A stretch of 52,862 nt of DNA from Tissierellales bacterium (GTDB lineage Bacteria; Bacillota; Clostridia; Tissierellales; JAOAQY01), in NCBI GenBank assembly GCA_025210965.1, contig JAOAQY010000086.1, forward strand, positions 1-52,862, read 5' to 3'. The notes under the pieces were generated by a model. The model did no database searches, was not told where the DNA came from, and worked only from the letters and a program-made list of their open reading frames with translations. Positions 20,776 through 30,361 of the stretch are shown here, piece after piece. The number at the start of each line of letters is the position of its first letter. Within the stretch, counting starts at the first letter, position 1. The translations under genes and the position numbers were made by a program.

Positions 20776-22347
20776 CTATCGCTTCTGTATCTTGATTTGA
20801 TTCTCATCGTAATAGTATATGCCTCGTACTGGTTCTCTTACTGGAATTTCTATTCTTCTAATCGCTACTTGAGATCCAGGATACATTTGTCCTAATATTT
20901 CTATACTGCCTTGACCTTTAGCTCTCAAATGATTATTAAGTATAGTACGCCGTTCCTCTAATTCAGATATTTCTAGCAAAAGTTTACCAATTAATCTTTT
21001 CAATTTCTTATAATCTAGTGGGATAGTCTTCTCTCCACCAGCTTCAATTAGGTTTAGTGCTTTTTTATTGTATTCCAAAAGTTTTAGCTTTTCTTTATAT
21101 ATTCCAAGTAGTTCAGTCAATTCTTCATTTACTTTTTTTCTGTCAAATCCATCAACTCTAATTTGAGTTTTTATCTCTTTATTATTCCCAATAAATTGTG
21201 CCTTTATCCAAGCTTTAGCAAGTATTTGCCCTCCTATGATTCGACCCCTGACCGATGCGACTTCTATTGCATCCGCTTTTATTCTACTGTCAAATATATA
21301 ATATCCTATGTTAACATATCCTCTACAATCAATATTAGCCTGATTTACATGCTTTATAAATACATCTTTACCTGCTTTTATCATACTTTTTCGCTTTCCA
21401 TAAATTCCGCCCTTAATAACTATGCTACCATACCTCGATTCTATGAGATTTACACACCCAAGTCCCATATTTCCATTTATGGTTATATCATAGTCTGCTT
21501 TTACAGAAAATCCATCTTCTATAGTCCCTTTTATAGTGACATAGCCCTTAAAATCTACATTGCCCGTCGTATAATTCACATCATCTATAATCAAATGACT
21601 GCTTATAGTAATTTTTCCATTTTTAAACTCAACTATCCCATCTTCTTTTGCGCTAAGTACATGTTCATGTTCTTCTTCTATCAATTGTACTTTTTTGCTA
21701 TCATACCTTAATCTTCCACTTTTTCCAGCTCTAGCATGTAGCACTTCGCCAATTATATTTATTCCATCTACACCTTCTGTAGCAAGTTTCATTGAACCAA
21801 GCCAGTCACCCATTCTAACAGATTTATACAATTCAACTGCATAAAAATCGGTAGATCCATCTTTAGAAATCTCTGGCTTTGCATCAGGTAATTCTATGTA
21901 ATTTACGATTGCATCTTCTCCATCTACAGGCAATTTCCCTTCTGCTACGATAACTTCTCCAGATATATCATATGTTTCATTAAATATAGATGATTTTACT
22001 CCATAATTAATTCCATTTTCTTCTAAGCATTGTCTGATTTGCTGATTAATCTCTTTTCTATTTGTTTCAAACTCTTCATTTGTAACAAATAGTTTTATAT
22101 AAGCTACCATTAGATCTTGATCCATTCTTAACTCAATCATATCTCCAGCTTCGCCAATACAAATAGTTTCATCATCTAACAACAAAAAAGAATTTCTGAG
22201 TTTCATAAAATCAATTTTATTAATTCTCGGATGATTTTCTAATTCTCTATGTAATTCAGCTATATTTCCATACTCTCTTTTCGCTTTTATGTATACATTT
22301 TGATTTTGGATAATAATATCGTATTCAACTGCACTTTTTATAATCAT
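20776..22347 (-). CDS. FapA/DUF342-domain protein
   Basis: This 523-residue cytoplasmic protein has the FapA (DUF342) core. After a ~150-residue N-terminal part comes the segment AVELYKSVRMGDWLGSMKLATEGVDGINIIGEV. Then a long run of short strands typical of a beta-helix follows (DGIVEFKNGKITISSHLIID, VNIGYYIFDSRIKADAIEVA, RGRIIGGQI). A C-terminal coiled coil of about 80 residues follows (KVNEELTELLGIYKEKLKLLEYNK). The family was named for polar localisation of flagella in Vibrio; its role in Clostridia is not established. AGGAGGGGG precedes the ATG. It heads a two-gene unit with the GAF-like gene, after the terminator of the cyclophilin unit. Confidence 0.85.
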   Translation of the reverse strand: MIIKSAVEYDIIIQNQNVYIKAKREYGNIAELHRELENHPRINKIDFMKLRNSFLLLDDETICIGEAGDMIELRMDQDLMVAYIKLFVTNEEFETNRKEINQQIRQCLEENGINYGVKSSIFNETYDISGEVIVAEGKLPVDGEDAIVNYIELPDAKPEISKDGSTDFYAVELYKSVRMGDWLGSMKLATEGVDGINIIGEVLHARAGKSGRLRYDSKKVQLIEEEHEHVLSAKEDGIVEFKNGKITISSHLIIDDVNYTTGNVDFKGYVTIKGTIEDGFSVKADYDITINGNMGLGCVNLIESRYGSIVIKGGIYGKRKSMIKAGKDVFIKHVNQANIDCRGYVNIGYYIFDSRIKADAIEVASVRGRIIGGQILAKAWIKAQFIGNNKEIKTQIRVDGFDRKKVNEELTELLGIYKEKLKLLEYNKKALNLIEAGGEKTIPLDYKKLKRLIGKLLLEISELEERRTILNNHLRAKGQGSIEILGQMYPGSQVAIRRIEIPVREPVRGIYYYDENQIKIQKR

Positions 22348-22410: not shown

Positions 22411-22929
22411 TTATAATGTTTCTGGTTCAGACCATTCGTAATCAGCAGTGTCAACAACTACTGAACCAATTCTCTGATCTTCAATAGGACGATCTCCAGC
22501 ATGTGTAGCTCCTGTTGCTATGCGATCAACTTCTTCTAACCCTTCTATTACTCTACCAAATGCAGCATAGCTACCATCAAGATGTGGTGCATTTGCATGC
22601 ATTATAAAAAACTGTGAACCAGCTGAATCAGGATGCATTGCTCTAGCCATAGACAATACACCTCTTTCATGCTTCATTTGGTTGTCAAATCCATTCGATT
22701 TAAACTCACCTTTTATTCCATATCCTGGACCACCCATTCCAGTTCCATCTGGGCATCCTCCTTGAATCATAAATCCTTCTATTACTCTATGAAAAATAAG
22801 TCCATCATAGAAGCCTTTATTTACAAGACTTATAAAATTATTTACTGTATTAGGCGCCACTCTTGGATAAAGTTCTGCCTTGATTTGATTACCGTTCTCC
22901 ATGGTAATCGTAATAACTGGGTTTGTCAA
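22411..22929 (-). CDS. Cyclophilin-type peptidyl-prolyl isomerase
   Basis: This is a cytoplasmic cis-trans prolyl isomerase that helps protein folding (172 residues, single domain, no signal peptide). The active-site stretch is FHRVIEGFMIQGGCPDGTGMGG. Later come the SMARAMHPDSAGSQFFI and LDGSYAAFGRVIEGLEEVDR segments, all diagnostic. The start codon is TTG, with AAGGAGGAG upstream. It follows the repeat protein by 14 bases and is its last operon partner before a terminator. Confidence 0.95.
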   Translation of the reverse strand: MTNPVITITMENGNQIKAELYPRVAPNTVNNFISLVNKGFYDGLIFHRVIEGFMIQGGCPDGTGMGGPGYGIKGEFKSNGFDNQMKHERGVLSMARAMHPDSAGSQFFIMHANAPHLDGSYAAFGRVIEGLEEVDRIATGATHAGDRPIEDQRIGSVVVDTADYEWSEPETL

Positions 22930-22943
22930 AATAAATCTCCTCC

Positions 22944-24362
22944 TTACGAATTCTCTGCTATCAATTTAGCAATTTCGTCATCACTCAATATTTTATTTGG
23001 ATCATCGCCAACTGACGATGTTACCTCCTCTTCTAGCTCCTCTATATGAGCCTCATCATCTTCTTGCTGAGCTATAAGTGCAGCAATTTCATCTGGTGTC
23101 ATCATTTTATTCGAATCCTCTGGAGCTGGCGCCTCTACTTTTTCAACCATTGGGCCATTCTCGGCTTCTTCTTGTTCTATAAGTGCCGCTATCTCCTCGG
23201 GCGTCATCATCTTATTCGAATCCTCTGATGCTGAAGGCTCTTCTTCTGGAGTACTTTCTTGCTCTACTAGTGCTGCTATCTCCTCAGGTGTCATCATTTT
23301 ATTTGAATCCTCTGATGCTGGAGACTCTTCTTCTGCATCACTTTCTTGTTCTACTAGCGCTGCTATCTCCTCGGGCGTCATCATCTTATTTGAATCCTCT
23401 GATGCTGGAGATTTTTCTTCGGGTTCACTTTCTTGCTCTACTAATGCCGCTATCTCCTCAGGTGTCATCATTTTATTTGAATCCTCTGATGCTGGAGACT
23501 CTTCCTCGACATCACTTTCTTGTTCTACTAGTGCTGCTATCTCCTCAGGCGTCATCATTTTATTTGGATCTTCTGATTCTAGCTCTTCTTCATTAGATTC
23601 TAGCGTCTCTTCTATTATATCATCTGATTCTATTTCTTCAAGCAAATCATCACTTTCAGATTCTAACTCTTCTGTTTGATTTTCTTCAGGTATAGACGCT
23701 TGCAAATCTTCCTCTATAATTTCAATCTCTTCTTCTTCTGATTCATCTTCTAACATTTCTTCTGTTTCTTCATGTTGTTCTTCCGCTTCACTTACAAGCT
23801 CTTCTATGCTTTCATTCTCTTCGAAGGAAGAGTTCCCTGGTTCTCCCTCTTCACCTTGAGCTTCCATCATCATTTCTTGCTCTTTTTCTGGGTCATAGTC
23901 CAATCGCTTTTTCTCAAATTCTTCTAGAGCTTGTTCATAGTTGCGATCCATATGTTTTTTTTCTTCTTCGAATTTTCGCTTTTTTTCATTTAGTAATCTC
24001 AAACGCTCCATGTAATTTTCATTTATACGTTCTTTCTCTTTGTTAAACTCTTCCTGTTCTCGCTCTAGTGCTTGTAATGCTTTTAATTCAGCTTTTCGTC
24101 TTTGATCTTCCAATCTAAAAAGAGCTTTCTCTTCCTCTAGCTTCCTATGTTCCTCTTCAAGTTCTCTCTCTCGTTTTTCTTTCTCTGACTCAAAGCGTTT
24201 CTTTTCTTCTTCGAATTTTTCACGTTCAAGTTCTACTCGAGTTTTCTTTCTCTGCATTTCTTCTTTATAGGTTTCAAAACAAGACGTGCAATAAATTTCC
24301 CCAGTTGATTTGAGCTTATGTGCTTTTTTACTAATTTTTTCGCCACATTTATCGCAATTCAT
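22944..24362 (-). CDS. Zinc-finger/coiled-coil protein with seven EIAAL-type repeats
   Basis: I know no named family for this 472-residue protein. Residues 1-30 carry two CxxC pairs (C3/C6 and C25/C28), a LIM- or ribbon-like zinc site. Residues ~35-165 are a highly charged coiled coil, and ~165-264 a very acidic Glu-rich linker. Residues 265-472 hold seven copies of a motif whose core is NKMMTPEEIAALVEQ. The first four units are 29 residues long and nearly identical; the next two are 35 and 38; the last ends the protein as NKILSDDEIAKLIAENS. The core resembles the ILSQxEIDALL peptide by which FliM and FliY bind phosphorylated CheY. There is no signal peptide. It lies between the HD-GYP gene and the cyclophilin gene and is surely co-transcribed with them. 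A scaffold role is inference. Confidence 0.8.
   Translation of the reverse strand: MNCDKCGEKISKKAHKLKSTGEIYCTSCFETYKEEMQRKKTRVELEREKFEEEKKRFESEKEKRERELEEEHRKLEEEKALFRLEDQRRKAELKALQALEREQEEFNKEKERINENYMERLRLLNEKKRKFEEEKKHMDRNYEQALEEFEKKRLDYDPEKEQEMMMEAQGEEGEPGNSSFEENESIEELVSEAEEQHEETEEMLEDESEEEEIEIIEEDLQASIPEENQTEELESESDDLLEEIESDDIIEETLESNEEELESEDPNKMMTPEEIAALVEQESDVEEESPASEDSNKMMTPEEIAALVEQESEPEEKSPASEDSNKMMTPEEIAALVEQESDAEEESPASEDSNKMMTPEEIAALVEQESTPEEEPSASEDSNKMMTPEEIAALIEQEEAENGPMVEKVEAPAPEDSNKMMTPDEIAALIAQQEDDEAHIEELEEEVTSSVGDDPNKILSDDEIAKLIAENS
22947..23570 (-). repeat. Seven in-frame repeats, first four 87 bases each
   Basis: The four 87-base units plus three longer or shorter ones encode the EIAAL-type motifs of the 472-residue protein. 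The near-identity of the first units suggests recent expansion by unequal crossing-over or slippage. Copy number may vary between strains. The uniform coding frame and protein-level pattern rule out a CRISPR array. Confidence 0.93.
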
Positions 24363-24383: not shown

Positions 24384-25601
24384 CTATGCCATATCAATAA
24401 TCCTAATATGCTTATTTTCAACAAGTTTTATAATTTTATCATCATCAGTCTGAATAACAGGTCTAGTTGGAAATTCCATATCTACAAAAATTATTTTTCC
24501 CTTTTTACCTGTATTTAATAATACTTTTTTGCCCATATAATATTCTGCCAAATTAGTCAAAAAGATATAGCAAACCTTTGGATCTAATGTAATTCCACTA
24601 TTCCAATATATATATTCAGCTGCATCAAATGGTGAATATCTATGCCTGTATGGTCTGTCTGAAATCATCGCATCATAAATATCACAAACCATTACTATTT
24701 TGGCAAATTCATGAATCTGATTAGATTTGACTCTAAGTGGATACCCGCTTCCATCTAGTCTCTCATGATGCTGTAATGCACAAAACTTAACATTGCTAGA
24801 AATGCCTTGAGTCTTGAGTAGTATCTGATACCCAAATTGTGGGTGTTTCTTTATTAATGTATATTCGTTGCTAGTTATCTTAAACTGCCTATTCATTATG
24901 AAATCTGGTACTTTTAGTTTTCCAATGTCAAACATCAAACCAGCTAATGCCAATTCTTTATTTTGTTCTTCTGTATAACCTAACCACTTGCCAATCATAG
25001 CTGCAAGCATTGATACCCTAAGTGAATGCTGATAAGTATAATCATCTACTTCTTTAAGTTGATTTAATCTCATTAGAACATCATTGTTTCTAACTAAATC
25101 TTCATAGGAATCTTCTATATGATCTTTAATATGCTCTAACTCTATTTTGTCACCAGATTTAATCTTTGAAAAGACTTCCTTAGTTTCTTCAACATAGACT
25201 TGATTCTTAACATCAAAAGGAATATTGCCTTCTCCTGTCAGCACTTGCAAGTCTTTATTTGCAGTTAATACGCCTTCTATTACCTTATCTTTTTCCATTT
25301 CATATTTGACGCGGAGATGCTCTTTCTTTTCATCTTCATCAAAATTTTCGCCTCGCTTCAAAGCTTTTGCTTTTTCAACAAGCAGTTCGTCTTCCAATCC
25401 TTGTTCTACTTCATTCTTAGGTGGCACTGTAGGATCTCTCAAAATCTTAATTTTTTCAATCTTAAGATTTTCCAATAATCTAATATGTTTTTCAGTTAAT
25501 TCAGTTCCCTCATTTAATAACACAACAGTTTTCCCAACATCTAAAACTGGCGCGCCTAAAATCATACCTTTTTTTATTTCACTTATTTTAATTTCTCTCA
25601 T
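24384..25601 (-). CDS. HD-GYP domain protein with an altered HD motif
   Basis: This is likely a cyclic-di-GMP phosphodiesterase or a degenerate relative (405 residues). N-terminal ~50 residues: a DUF3391-like segment (ISEIKKGMILGAPVLDVGKTV). Residues ~190-340: HD-GYP, with H192 in QHSLRVSMLA, LMFDIGKLKVPD (223-233) and HHERLDGSGYP (278-288), the GYP signature. In the canonical family the metal-binding pair is His-Asp (LLHDIGK); here the His is Phe (F224), although D225 and the GYP part remain. The C-terminal ~55 residues are a short extra beta-rich piece (MGKKVLLNTGKKGKIIFVD). Activity is therefore uncertain: metal binding may be weakened or lost. AGGAGG precedes the ATG, and it is first in the operon with the repeat protein and the cyclophilin. 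Confidence 0.88.
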   Translation of the reverse strand: MREIKISEIKKGMILGAPVLDVGKTVVLLNEGTELTEKHIRLLENLKIEKIKILRDPTVPPKNEVEQGLEDELLVEKAKALKRGENFDEDEKKEHLRVKYEMEKDKVIEGVLTANKDLQVLTGEGNIPFDVKNQVYVEETKEVFSKIKSGDKIELEHIKDHIEDSYEDLVRNNDVLMRLNQLKEVDDYTYQHSLRVSMLAAMIGKWLGYTEEQNKELALAGLMFDIGKLKVPDFIMNRQFKITSNEYTLIKKHPQFGYQILLKTQGISSNVKFCALQHHERLDGSGYPLRVKSNQIHEFAKIVMVCDIYDAMISDRPYRHRYSPFDAAEYIYWNSGITLDPKVCYIFLTNLAEYYMGKKVLLNTGKKGKIIFVDMEFPTRPVIQTDDDKIIKLVENKHIRIIDMA

Positions 25602-28082: not shown

Positions 28083-30305
28083 CTACTTATTCAAAAAATC
28101 GCCATAATGCTTTAATTCGTCAATAAACGACTCGAATTGAAGTATAAAATCTTTGATTTTATGCTCTTCTGACCTATTGTACTCATTTGAAAAAATTTCT
28201 TCTATTTCAGGCAATATCTTTGCTATCTTAACTGCGCTGAAATATCCTATTGTTCCCTTTATTTTGTGTAAATTTTGCAATGTATCTTCATCAAAATTTC
28301 TTTCAAATTGACAATTCTCAATTTTTTTAACTACAGATTCATATTCTTCTATAGCAAAGTTAATTATAACCGACATCTTGGAATTCCCCATCAAATTTCT
28401 ACTTTGATTTATTCCATCTAGGTCAATATATTCAAACACAAGTTTTTCGGGATCCATAAATTTAACTTTTCTAGTTTTCTTTAGTTGATCTTTTATTTTG
28501 TTTAGAACCTTTATTATTTGCCCTTCATTCAATGGTTTAGTTACAAAAAAATCTGCCCCGCAAGAATTTAACTCATCTACGGTTTCTTTACTTGCGTCTG
28601 CTGACATAGCCACAATTAGAGCATGCTCTATTTCTTGGCTTGATTCATAATCCCTTATATCTCTTATCGCTTCTCTACCATTTTTCACAGGCATTCTACT
28701 ATCCATGAGAACTACATCAGCACCATATTTCTTGTATTTTTCAAATGCCTCTTGACCATCTTTTGACGTTATAACTCTATGCTTTAAGTAGTCTCCAAGT
28801 AACTTTTCAACATACATTCTGTTAATAGCATCATCTTCTGCTACTAAAACTCGTAATTCATACCCTTGATCAATATCATAATTTCCTAAGTCATCAAGCG
28901 ACTCGTTCAATAATTCTTCTGTTTTCTCTAGTTCAAGTTCAAAATAGAATCTGCTTCCTCTACCTAAACTGCTCTGAAGTTTCAAATCACTGTTCATAGA
29001 TTCCAATAGATTTTTAGCTATAGGAAGACCTAATCCAGTTCCACCATATTCCTCAGCACTATTAATTTGCTCATATGCATCAAATATAATTTTTTGTTTT
29101 TCTTTAGATATACCTATTCCTGTATCCTCAACTTCAAACAAAAGCTTTATTTTAGAATCATGCCCTTCTAGTATTCTAATATTTAATGTAACCGAACCTA
29201 CTTGAGTAAATTTAACTGCATTACCAAGTAAATTAAGTAAAACTTGCTGTAATCTAATATAATCTCCAATAAAATATTTTGGCAAATTTTCATCTTTGTT
29301 AATTTCAAATCTTAAGTTTTTATTTTTGCACTTCTGAGTCAATATTTGTTCTATATTTGACAACATAATTTCTAAATCGAAATTTTTATTCTCCATAACT
29401 ATTTTATTTGATTCTATCTTAGAAAAATCTAAAACTTCTCCAATAACATGCTTCAAATAGTCGGACGAATACTTTATATTGTCCAAATATATTCTCAAAT
29501 CAACATCATCTATCTCATGTCTTAGTACATTTGTCATACCTATTATGCCATTTAGTGGAGTTCTTATCTCATGACTCATATTTGCTAAAAATCTACTCTT
29601 AGAACTACTAGCTAACTCTGCTTTTTCACGTTCCTTCTTAAATGCGTTTTCTAATTCCTTGTACTCGGTTATATCTTGCATAGTTCCAAATATATTTACC
29701 ATGATACCTTCATCATTAAATTCCTTAGTTCCATGAGTAAATACCCATTTTTCGTTTCCTCTTTCTGTCACTATTCTAAACTCTATCTCGTATTCTCCTC
29801 TATTTTGAAATGAATTTTTATTTATAGTATCTACTCGTTCTCTATCATCTGGGTGTATAAACTTTGAAAACAAATCAACACTTGCTTGATTATATCTAGG
29901 ATCTAGTTCTAATATGTCATAAACTTCCTCAGACCAAAACTCCACATCATTTATTAAATCATGAGACCAATCGCCAAGCTTTGCTATTTTCTGTGTTTTT
30001 TTCAGTCTGTACTCAAGAATTCTCCTATCGGTTTTCTCCAAAAATATAGCGGCATAACAACTTTCCATTTCATGAATTTTTATGTCATAATAATGTCTAT
30101 TGCTCTCATATCTTATTGATTCTGATTTCAAATTATCATAACTATCATAATATTCATTTATGGCATTTTGTACACGCTCTATATCAAATTCTGAAGTTTT
30201 TTTATTTCCTTCTAATATCTTAGCTTTCCCATTCTTTAATTTAAATAACAAGACGGGTATATCTAAATCCTCAACATTTATTGAAAGTTTTGTACGACTT
30301 ATCAC
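28083..30305 (-). CDS. Cytosolic hybrid histidine kinase with receiver and HPt domains
   Basis: This is a multi-step phosphorelay protein of about 740 residues. Order from the chosen GTG start: N-terminal region, one PAS domain (~105-215; GDWSHDLINDVEFWSEEVYD to NIFGTMQDITEYK), HisKA with H245 in FLANMSHEIRTPLNG, then HATPase (NLLGNAVKFTQVG, DTGIGISKEKQ, GGTGLGLPIA). A receiver domain follows (VVLMDSRMPVKNG), and last an HPt domain with its His in LHKIKGTIGYFSA. No membrane helix is seen, so it should sense something inside the cell. The long reading frame offers an ATG at 30350, but only the GTG at 30305 has a ribosome site (AGAGGTG) at the right distance. No separate output regulator is adjacent. 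Confidence 0.9.
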   Translation of the reverse strand: MISRTKLSINVEDLDIPVLLFKLKNGKAKILEGNKKTSEFDIERVQNAINEYYDSYDNLKSESIRYESNRHYYDIKIHEMESCYAAIFLEKTDRRILEYRLKKTQKIAKLGDWSHDLINDVEFWSEEVYDILELDPRYNQASVDLFSKFIHPDDRERVDTINKNSFQNRGEYEIEFRIVTERGNEKWVFTHGTKEFNDEGIMVNIFGTMQDITEYKELENAFKKEREKAELASSSKSRFLANMSHEIRTPLNGIIGMTNVLRHEIDDVDLRIYLDNIKYSSDYLKHVIGEVLDFSKIESNKIVMENKNFDLEIMLSNIEQILTQKCKNKNLRFEINKDENLPKYFIGDYIRLQQVLLNLLGNAVKFTQVGSVTLNIRILEGHDSKIKLLFEVEDTGIGISKEKQKIIFDAYEQINSAEEYGGTGLGLPIAKNLLESMNSDLKLQSSLGRGSRFYFELELEKTEELLNESLDDLGNYDIDQGYELRVLVAEDDAINRMYVEKLLGDYLKHRVITSKDGQEAFEKYKKYGADVVLMDSRMPVKNGREAIRDIRDYESSQEIEHALIVAMSADASKETVDELNSCGADFFVTKPLNEGQIIKVLNKIKDQLKKTRKVKFMDPEKLVFEYIDLDGINQSRNLMGNSKMSVIINFAIEEYESVVKKIENCQFERNFDEDTLQNLHKIKGTIGYFSAVKIAKILPEIEEIFSNEYNRSEEHKIKDFILQFESFIDELKHYGDFLNK

Positions 30306-30361
30306 AAGATCACCTCTCTGACAAACTTCTATATTTATAAGATAATACATAGCTTGTCTGT

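Follow-up and report, generated by a model that had tools for sequence, protein, structure and literature searches.

A finger and coiled-coil protein carrying seven tandem FliM-like motifs in a Tissierellales bacterium: a candidate multivalent scaffold of the clostridial motility network

The window, the whole stretch of DNA analysed here, spans 52,862 nucleotides of a contig from a Tissierellales bacterium (JAOAQY010000086.1). Near its middle lies a reverse-strand open reading frame with an ATG start that encodes a 472-amino-acid protein (Table 1). The protein begins MNCDKCGEK...YCTSCFETYK, and its finger cysteines are C3–C6 and C25–C28. Similarity of this finger to PF01258 (zf-dskA_traR) is weak and sub-threshold, at 15.4 bits against a cut-off of 24.9. 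The acidic linker (about residues 166–268) carries a net charge of −48. AlphaFold2 models each motif copy of the C-terminal tail as an isolated short helix amid low-confidence, disordered stretches; built from one sequence only, and for a protein rich in repeats, the model is weak evidence and is used as consistent only. No transmembrane segment is evident from the sequence, the Pfam matches include no LysM, FimV C-terminal or CheC/SPOA domain, and NCBIfam holds no model matching the protein. Pfam matches to Glycos_trans_3N, Phage_TAC_6 and similar families were rejected because they arise from the repeated helix cap.

Table 1. Features of the motif-repeat gene and its neighbours in the window
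Feature	Position	Strand	Basis
Motif-repeat protein of 472 aa (C4 finger, long helix, acidic linker, seven copies of a docking-type motif)	22944..24362	(-)	sequence, AlphaFold2
C4 zinc-finger-like N-terminus, CxxC-x18-CxxC, aa 1-33	24264..24362	(-)	sequence; weak PF01258; pLDDT 83-91
Long single charged helix / coiled coil, aa 26-154	23901..24287	(-)	AlphaFold2 pLDDT >90 for most
Acidic linker, aa 166-266, D+E ~48%	23565..23867	(-)	sequence
Motif copy 1, NKMMTPEEIAALVEQ	23520..23564	(-)	pattern, sequence
Motif copy 2, NKMMTPEEIAALVEQ	23433..23477	(-)	pattern, sequence
Motif copy 3, NKMMTPEEIAALVEQ	23346..23390	(-)	pattern, sequence
Motif copy 4, NKMMTPEEIAALVEQ	23259..23303	(-)	pattern, sequence
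Motif copy 5, NKMMTPEEIAALIEQ	23172..23216	(-)	pattern, sequence
Motif copy 6, NKMMTPDEIAALIAQ	23067..23111	(-)	pattern, sequence
Motif copy 7, NKILSDDEIAKLIAE, C-terminal	22953..22997	(-)	most FliM-like by identity to LSQxEIDxLL
HD-GYP-type protein, upstream of finger gene	24384..25601	(-)	HD_5 6e-30; FDIGK replaces HDIGK
Cyclophilin-type peptidyl-prolyl isomerase, 15 bp downstream	22411..22929	(-)	sequence, by eye
FapA-family (DUF342; flagellar assembly protein A), second host FapA paralogue	20776..22347	(-)	E 1e-53
GAF-like regulator accompanying the FapA paralogue, also in L091	19486..20766	(-)	locus comparison

The finger gene belongs to a same-strand run of five genes, encoding the HD-GYP-type protein, the finger protein, the cyclophilin, the FapA-family protein and the GAF-like regulator, with gaps of ~10–64 bp. 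An earlier note on this DNA had stated that the window contains no flagellar gene; that statement is corrected by the FapA-family gene, which lies two genes from the finger gene, and a receiver domain is also present at 28503–28850 within a hybrid kinase. This hybrid histidine kinase (28083–30350, (-)) combines PAS, HisKA, HATPase and receiver domains with a weak Hpt match; the window has no other receiver domain. In the HD-GYP-type protein, the HD dyad reads FDIGK and the HHERLDGSGYP motif is retained, so that it is possibly a c-di-GMP binder devoid of phosphodiesterase activity. Among the other genomes of the order, G010 alone has a close relative of the FapA paralogue (42% identity), and there the FapA and GAF-like genes have a DUF327 (YaaR) gene as their neighbour. 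Synteny with G010, the nearest relative, indicates that the pair is retained there and that the finger protein is absent.

The seven motif copies of the window protein follow the pattern (D)[PS]NK[MI][ML][TS]x[DE]EIA[AK]L[VI] and start at residues 267, 296, 325, 354, 383, 418 and 456, spaced by 29, 29, 29, 29, 35 and 38 residues. Across the organism's own 3.6 Mb genome the pattern has seven matches, all within this gene, and the reversed control has none. The repeats and the CxxC..CxxC finger described in the earlier note are confirmed. At the DNA level, copies 1–5 are covered by a tandem array of 87 bp × 4.9 copies (23169–23591; TRF). Such an array would be expected if the tail were low-complexity acidic sequence in which generic helix caps had been amplified by slippage, with no specific partner; T-P-E-E-I is a common helix N-cap, and the fact that Glycos_trans_3N and further Pfam families of no relation match it below threshold points the same way. 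The codons of copies 1–4 disfavour this explanation. Seven of the 15 motif codons vary, every change being synonymous, whereas five of the seven variable spacer codons are non-synonymous (Fisher p 0.02, on small numbers). Because the motif changes are all synonymous and the spacer changes mostly non-synonymous, the repeated peptide, and not the spacers, is by this codon comparison under purifying selection. In addition, copies 6 and 7 keep the motif despite their diverged spacing, and divergent Lachnospirales proteins, described below, retain the same peptide at their C-terminus. A tail amplified by slippage and lacking a specific partner is therefore very improbable.

The gene as a whole is known from its own genome only, and an orthologue search with the whole protein found none among 60 relatives. 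Across 249 genomes of the order, the motif pattern returned this gene and chance matches, which were rejected (Clp-type, AfsR-type, pyruvate dehydrogenase-type and others). A protein search of genome contigs found eight Lachnospirales-type loci in which essentially the tail motif alone matches. In Lachnospirales a narrow DNA pattern missed most carriers and a wider one recovered them, type C (below) included; these patterns come from the motif itself, and divergent forms escape them. One apparent carrier, G321, was rejected as a chance match in an HsdM-like protein.

The Lachnospirales carriers have two architectures, unrelated to each other and membrane-anchored, on which the extended motif DPNKx[ML][ST]P[DE][DE]IAAL occurs in 1–7 copies. 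Type B proteins (L011, L122, L142), the kind encoded at the eight loci of the protein search, have two N-terminal transmembrane helices, a coiled coil and a divergent acidic tail ending in ...DPNKMMTPDEIAALIAGL, with 1–6 copies; the terminal peptide alone is conserved while the tails diverge. Type C proteins (L119–L121) have a long acidic N-terminal tail with 1–7 copies, a Lys-rich stretch, one transmembrane segment and an outer domain. The transmembrane and Lys-rich features were read from sequence and, for type B, also from a structure model of a five-copy member found in a class-wide sample (G821). A Prok_Ub Pfam match of type B was rejected as a product of the repeated helix cap. Both types share the acidic disordered tail and the extended motif with the window protein but lack the zinc finger. 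The consensus of 35 distinct copies is D-P-N-K-x-[ML]-[ST]-P-[DE]-[DE]-I-A-A-L-[FILV]-A. Since the three scaffolds are unrelated, the peptide must have either spread or arisen by convergence, in the manner of short linear motifs. A literature search found no paper describing such repeats. At one type B locus (L122:8865-11261), small paralogous proteins are also encoded in a row; they share a leader-like N-terminus (EELLKGLTEEQIKKVEACKSSEEILALAKAEGV.L..EQLEAVSGG), have CxxC pairs of zinc-ribbon-like appearance at the C-terminal end, and resemble Nif11-type peptide precursors.

The genomes that carry the motif are mostly flagellate. In the Lachnospirales sample, FliM is present in all eight real carriers, against 238 of 392 genomes (61%), a hypergeometric p of 0.018 that ignores kinship; the genes of G446 and G555 are near-identical. 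Among the eight genomes from the protein search, six have FliM, and G252 and G255 lack both FliM and FlhA; these two are draft genomes, and FliM and FlhA can share one operon. Pooled with shared genomes counted once, 13 of 15 Lachnospirales carriers have FliM, in a set that is small, related and mostly composed of metagenome drafts.

Gene context also varies between the loci. A CheV gene (CheW plus receiver) lies one to three genes from the type C genes of G477 and G559, two of the three type C genes, and in G559 a GGDEF-EAL gene adjoins the type C gene. CheV adjoins type C repeat proteins at L120:455-2452 and L121:8172-12338, the GGDEF-EAL gene being in L121. Type B genes are preceded by Soj-ParB-DUF4446-DUF3881 in L011, L122 and L123, and in G821 a FapA gene lies near the type B gene, as in the window. 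Because neighbours differ from locus to locus, the context points to motility and c-di-GMP generally, not to one partner.

The host genome encodes both CheY and a flagellar motor. Its FliM has a TTG start (SEVLSQNEIDALLSAL), its FliY starts MVSDMLSQEEIDALLNGG, and a single contig carries FliM, FliY, CheY, CheB, CheC, CheD, MotAB-type genes, FlhF and FlhG; apart from FliM, these genes were identified by reading their sequences. Receiver-domain matches number 66 in the genome. Phosphorylated CheY binds the N-terminus of FliM (PMC9126983; PMC5677366).

The similarity to FliM was assessed with a profile of 17 distinct FliM/FliY N-terminal motifs from the host and Lachnospirales genomes, two of them read by eye. 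The background comprised 104,068 eleven-mers of the screened loci, with flagellar and motif proteins excluded. The window copies score 13.2–13.7 bits, a range whose lower end is reached by two of the background eleven-mers, and Lachnospirales copies score 10–20 bits; in most of the motif proteins the copies lie between 13 and 20 bits. The FliM core (hydrophobic, S/T, x, x, E/D, I, x, x, L, hydrophobic) is present in the repeats, both by profile and in the 35-copy alignment. Relative to the published FliM motif LSQxEIDxLL (PMC5677366), copies 1–6 have three of eight exact identities and copy 7 has five, in agreement with the earlier view that the last copy is the best match. One repeat in L121 reads TMTADEIDALF.

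In the CheY interface, FliM contributes the hydrophobic contacts L6, I11, L14 and L15, together with two polar contacts, Q8, which contacts CheY V108, and D12, which contacts CheY K119 (PMC3774744). The hydrophobic positions are kept in the repeats as M/L, I, L and V/I. Position Q8 is P, A, G or D, with proline in most copies and glutamine in none, and position D12 is alanine in 30 of the 35 distinct copies. Asp12 is not essential to the FliM/FliY class, since the FliY proteins of several of these genomes have N, S, E or A in its place. FliY of the carrier G555 (L129:8210-9385 (+)) starts MSDVLSEEEIAALFAQ; its motif VLSEEEIAALF lacks both Q8 and D12, which is unusual for the C-ring, and an EIAALF sequence is thus found in a genuine C-ring protein. 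The repeats and the FliM/FliY peptide share an S/T-capped short helix, the E-I-x-x-L core, the hydrophobic contacts and a flexible terminal tail. They differ in that the FliM/FliY peptide is single and N-terminal in a CheC/SPOA protein of the C-ring, whereas the window repeats are tandem and C-terminal and occur in a protein with none of these properties; Q8 is replaced by P and D12 by A, and a DPNK prefix is added.

FliM and FliY lack the DPNK prefix, which hardly varies among the 35 distinct copies; this suggests a partner with extra contacts. The prefix is consistent with DPNKx[ML][ST]PDEIAAL being a separate docking motif for another partner, such as a receiver, a pole or membrane organiser or a c-di-GMP protein, with the FliM likeness a convergence of helix capping and amphipathic face. 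The absence of Q8 and D12, the two carriers that lack FliM and FlhA, the HD-GYP gene beside the window gene and the GGDEF-EAL gene beside one type C gene are all compatible with this alternative. Against it stand the profile scores, rarely reached by chance, the mostly flagellate carriers and the EIAALF of a genuine FliY. A separate motif is less likely than not and ranks second among the readings considered.

The reading ranked first, a tentative one, is that the protein is a multivalent scaffold that binds a CheY-family receiver through its FliM-like peptides. The earlier proposal of FliM-like, multivalent CheY docking is partly supported: the likeness to the FliM/FliY peptide exceeds chance and the multivalency is well founded. 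CheY is no more than a plausible, putative client, because Q8 and D12 are replaced, the foreign DPNK prefix is near-invariant and FliM and FlhA are both absent from two carriers. The repeats may function like a FliM-type peptide; they are not classed as a CheY-binding FliM motif, because two of the contact residues are missing and binding is putative.

The window protein is best described as a putative motility-network scaffold with multivalent docking motifs. The zinc finger and long rod would carry a disordered acidic tail presenting seven helical peptides of the FliM/FliY class, each an S/T-capped helix with the hydrophobic face M/L...I..L[VIFL]. Each peptide would dock in the groove by which motility regulators bind FliM/FliY. 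Among possible clients a CheY-family receiver domain is likeliest, and it would be bound at a distance from the motor. With seven helices the tail would concentrate the client locally and either keep it off the motor or deliver it there. The scaffold would thus act as a buffer or a store for the client, or fix its place. We infer the binding, the CheY-type client and the sponge or hub role from these features together.

A further candidate client is FlhG. This MinD-type ATPase determines how many flagella are made, and the repeats might titrate it or tether it at a landmark. FlhG interacts with the FliM N-terminus in polar flagellates (PMC12826062) and with FliY in Bacillus (PMC7226244), and a MinD-type ATPase gene of the FlhG type is present, by sequence reading, in the host's own flagellar operon. 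Soj-ParB precedes the type B gene at three loci, but this ParAB link may be mere gene order. Acidic cytoplasmic domains are described for landmark proteins such as HubP (PMC12918733). Q8 and D12 are missing for this client too, and FlhG, ranked third, is an unlikely partner.

Two known systems offer partial parallels to the preferred scaffold reading. CheZ has a single C-terminal CheY-binding peptide alongside a phosphatase domain; by description it resembles the window protein in being a non-motor protein with a terminal CheY-docking helix, putative in the latter. HubP/FimV landmarks recruit motility regulators through long acidic cytoplasmic regions, and the window protein likewise has an extended acidic region. 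HubP/FimV and types B and C are membrane-anchored, whereas the window protein has neither an evident transmembrane segment nor the LysM and FimV C-terminal domains.

More broadly, and with somewhat less confidence than for the single protein, Clostridia may possess a class of scaffolds, on at least three unrelated architectures, that capture CheY-family receivers or FlhG off the motor through tandem FliM-like peptides and so set the free pool or place of the regulator. At the motor, single FliM/FliY peptides are the known contact points of CheY and FlhG. If the proposal is true, proteins with up to seven such copies off the motor would represent a novel means by which signals for chemotaxis or flagellar number are buffered, delayed or localised, and they offer ready-made multivalent baits. 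Even with another client, a peptide borne on three unrelated scaffolds would mark an unrecognised hub in motile Clostridia.
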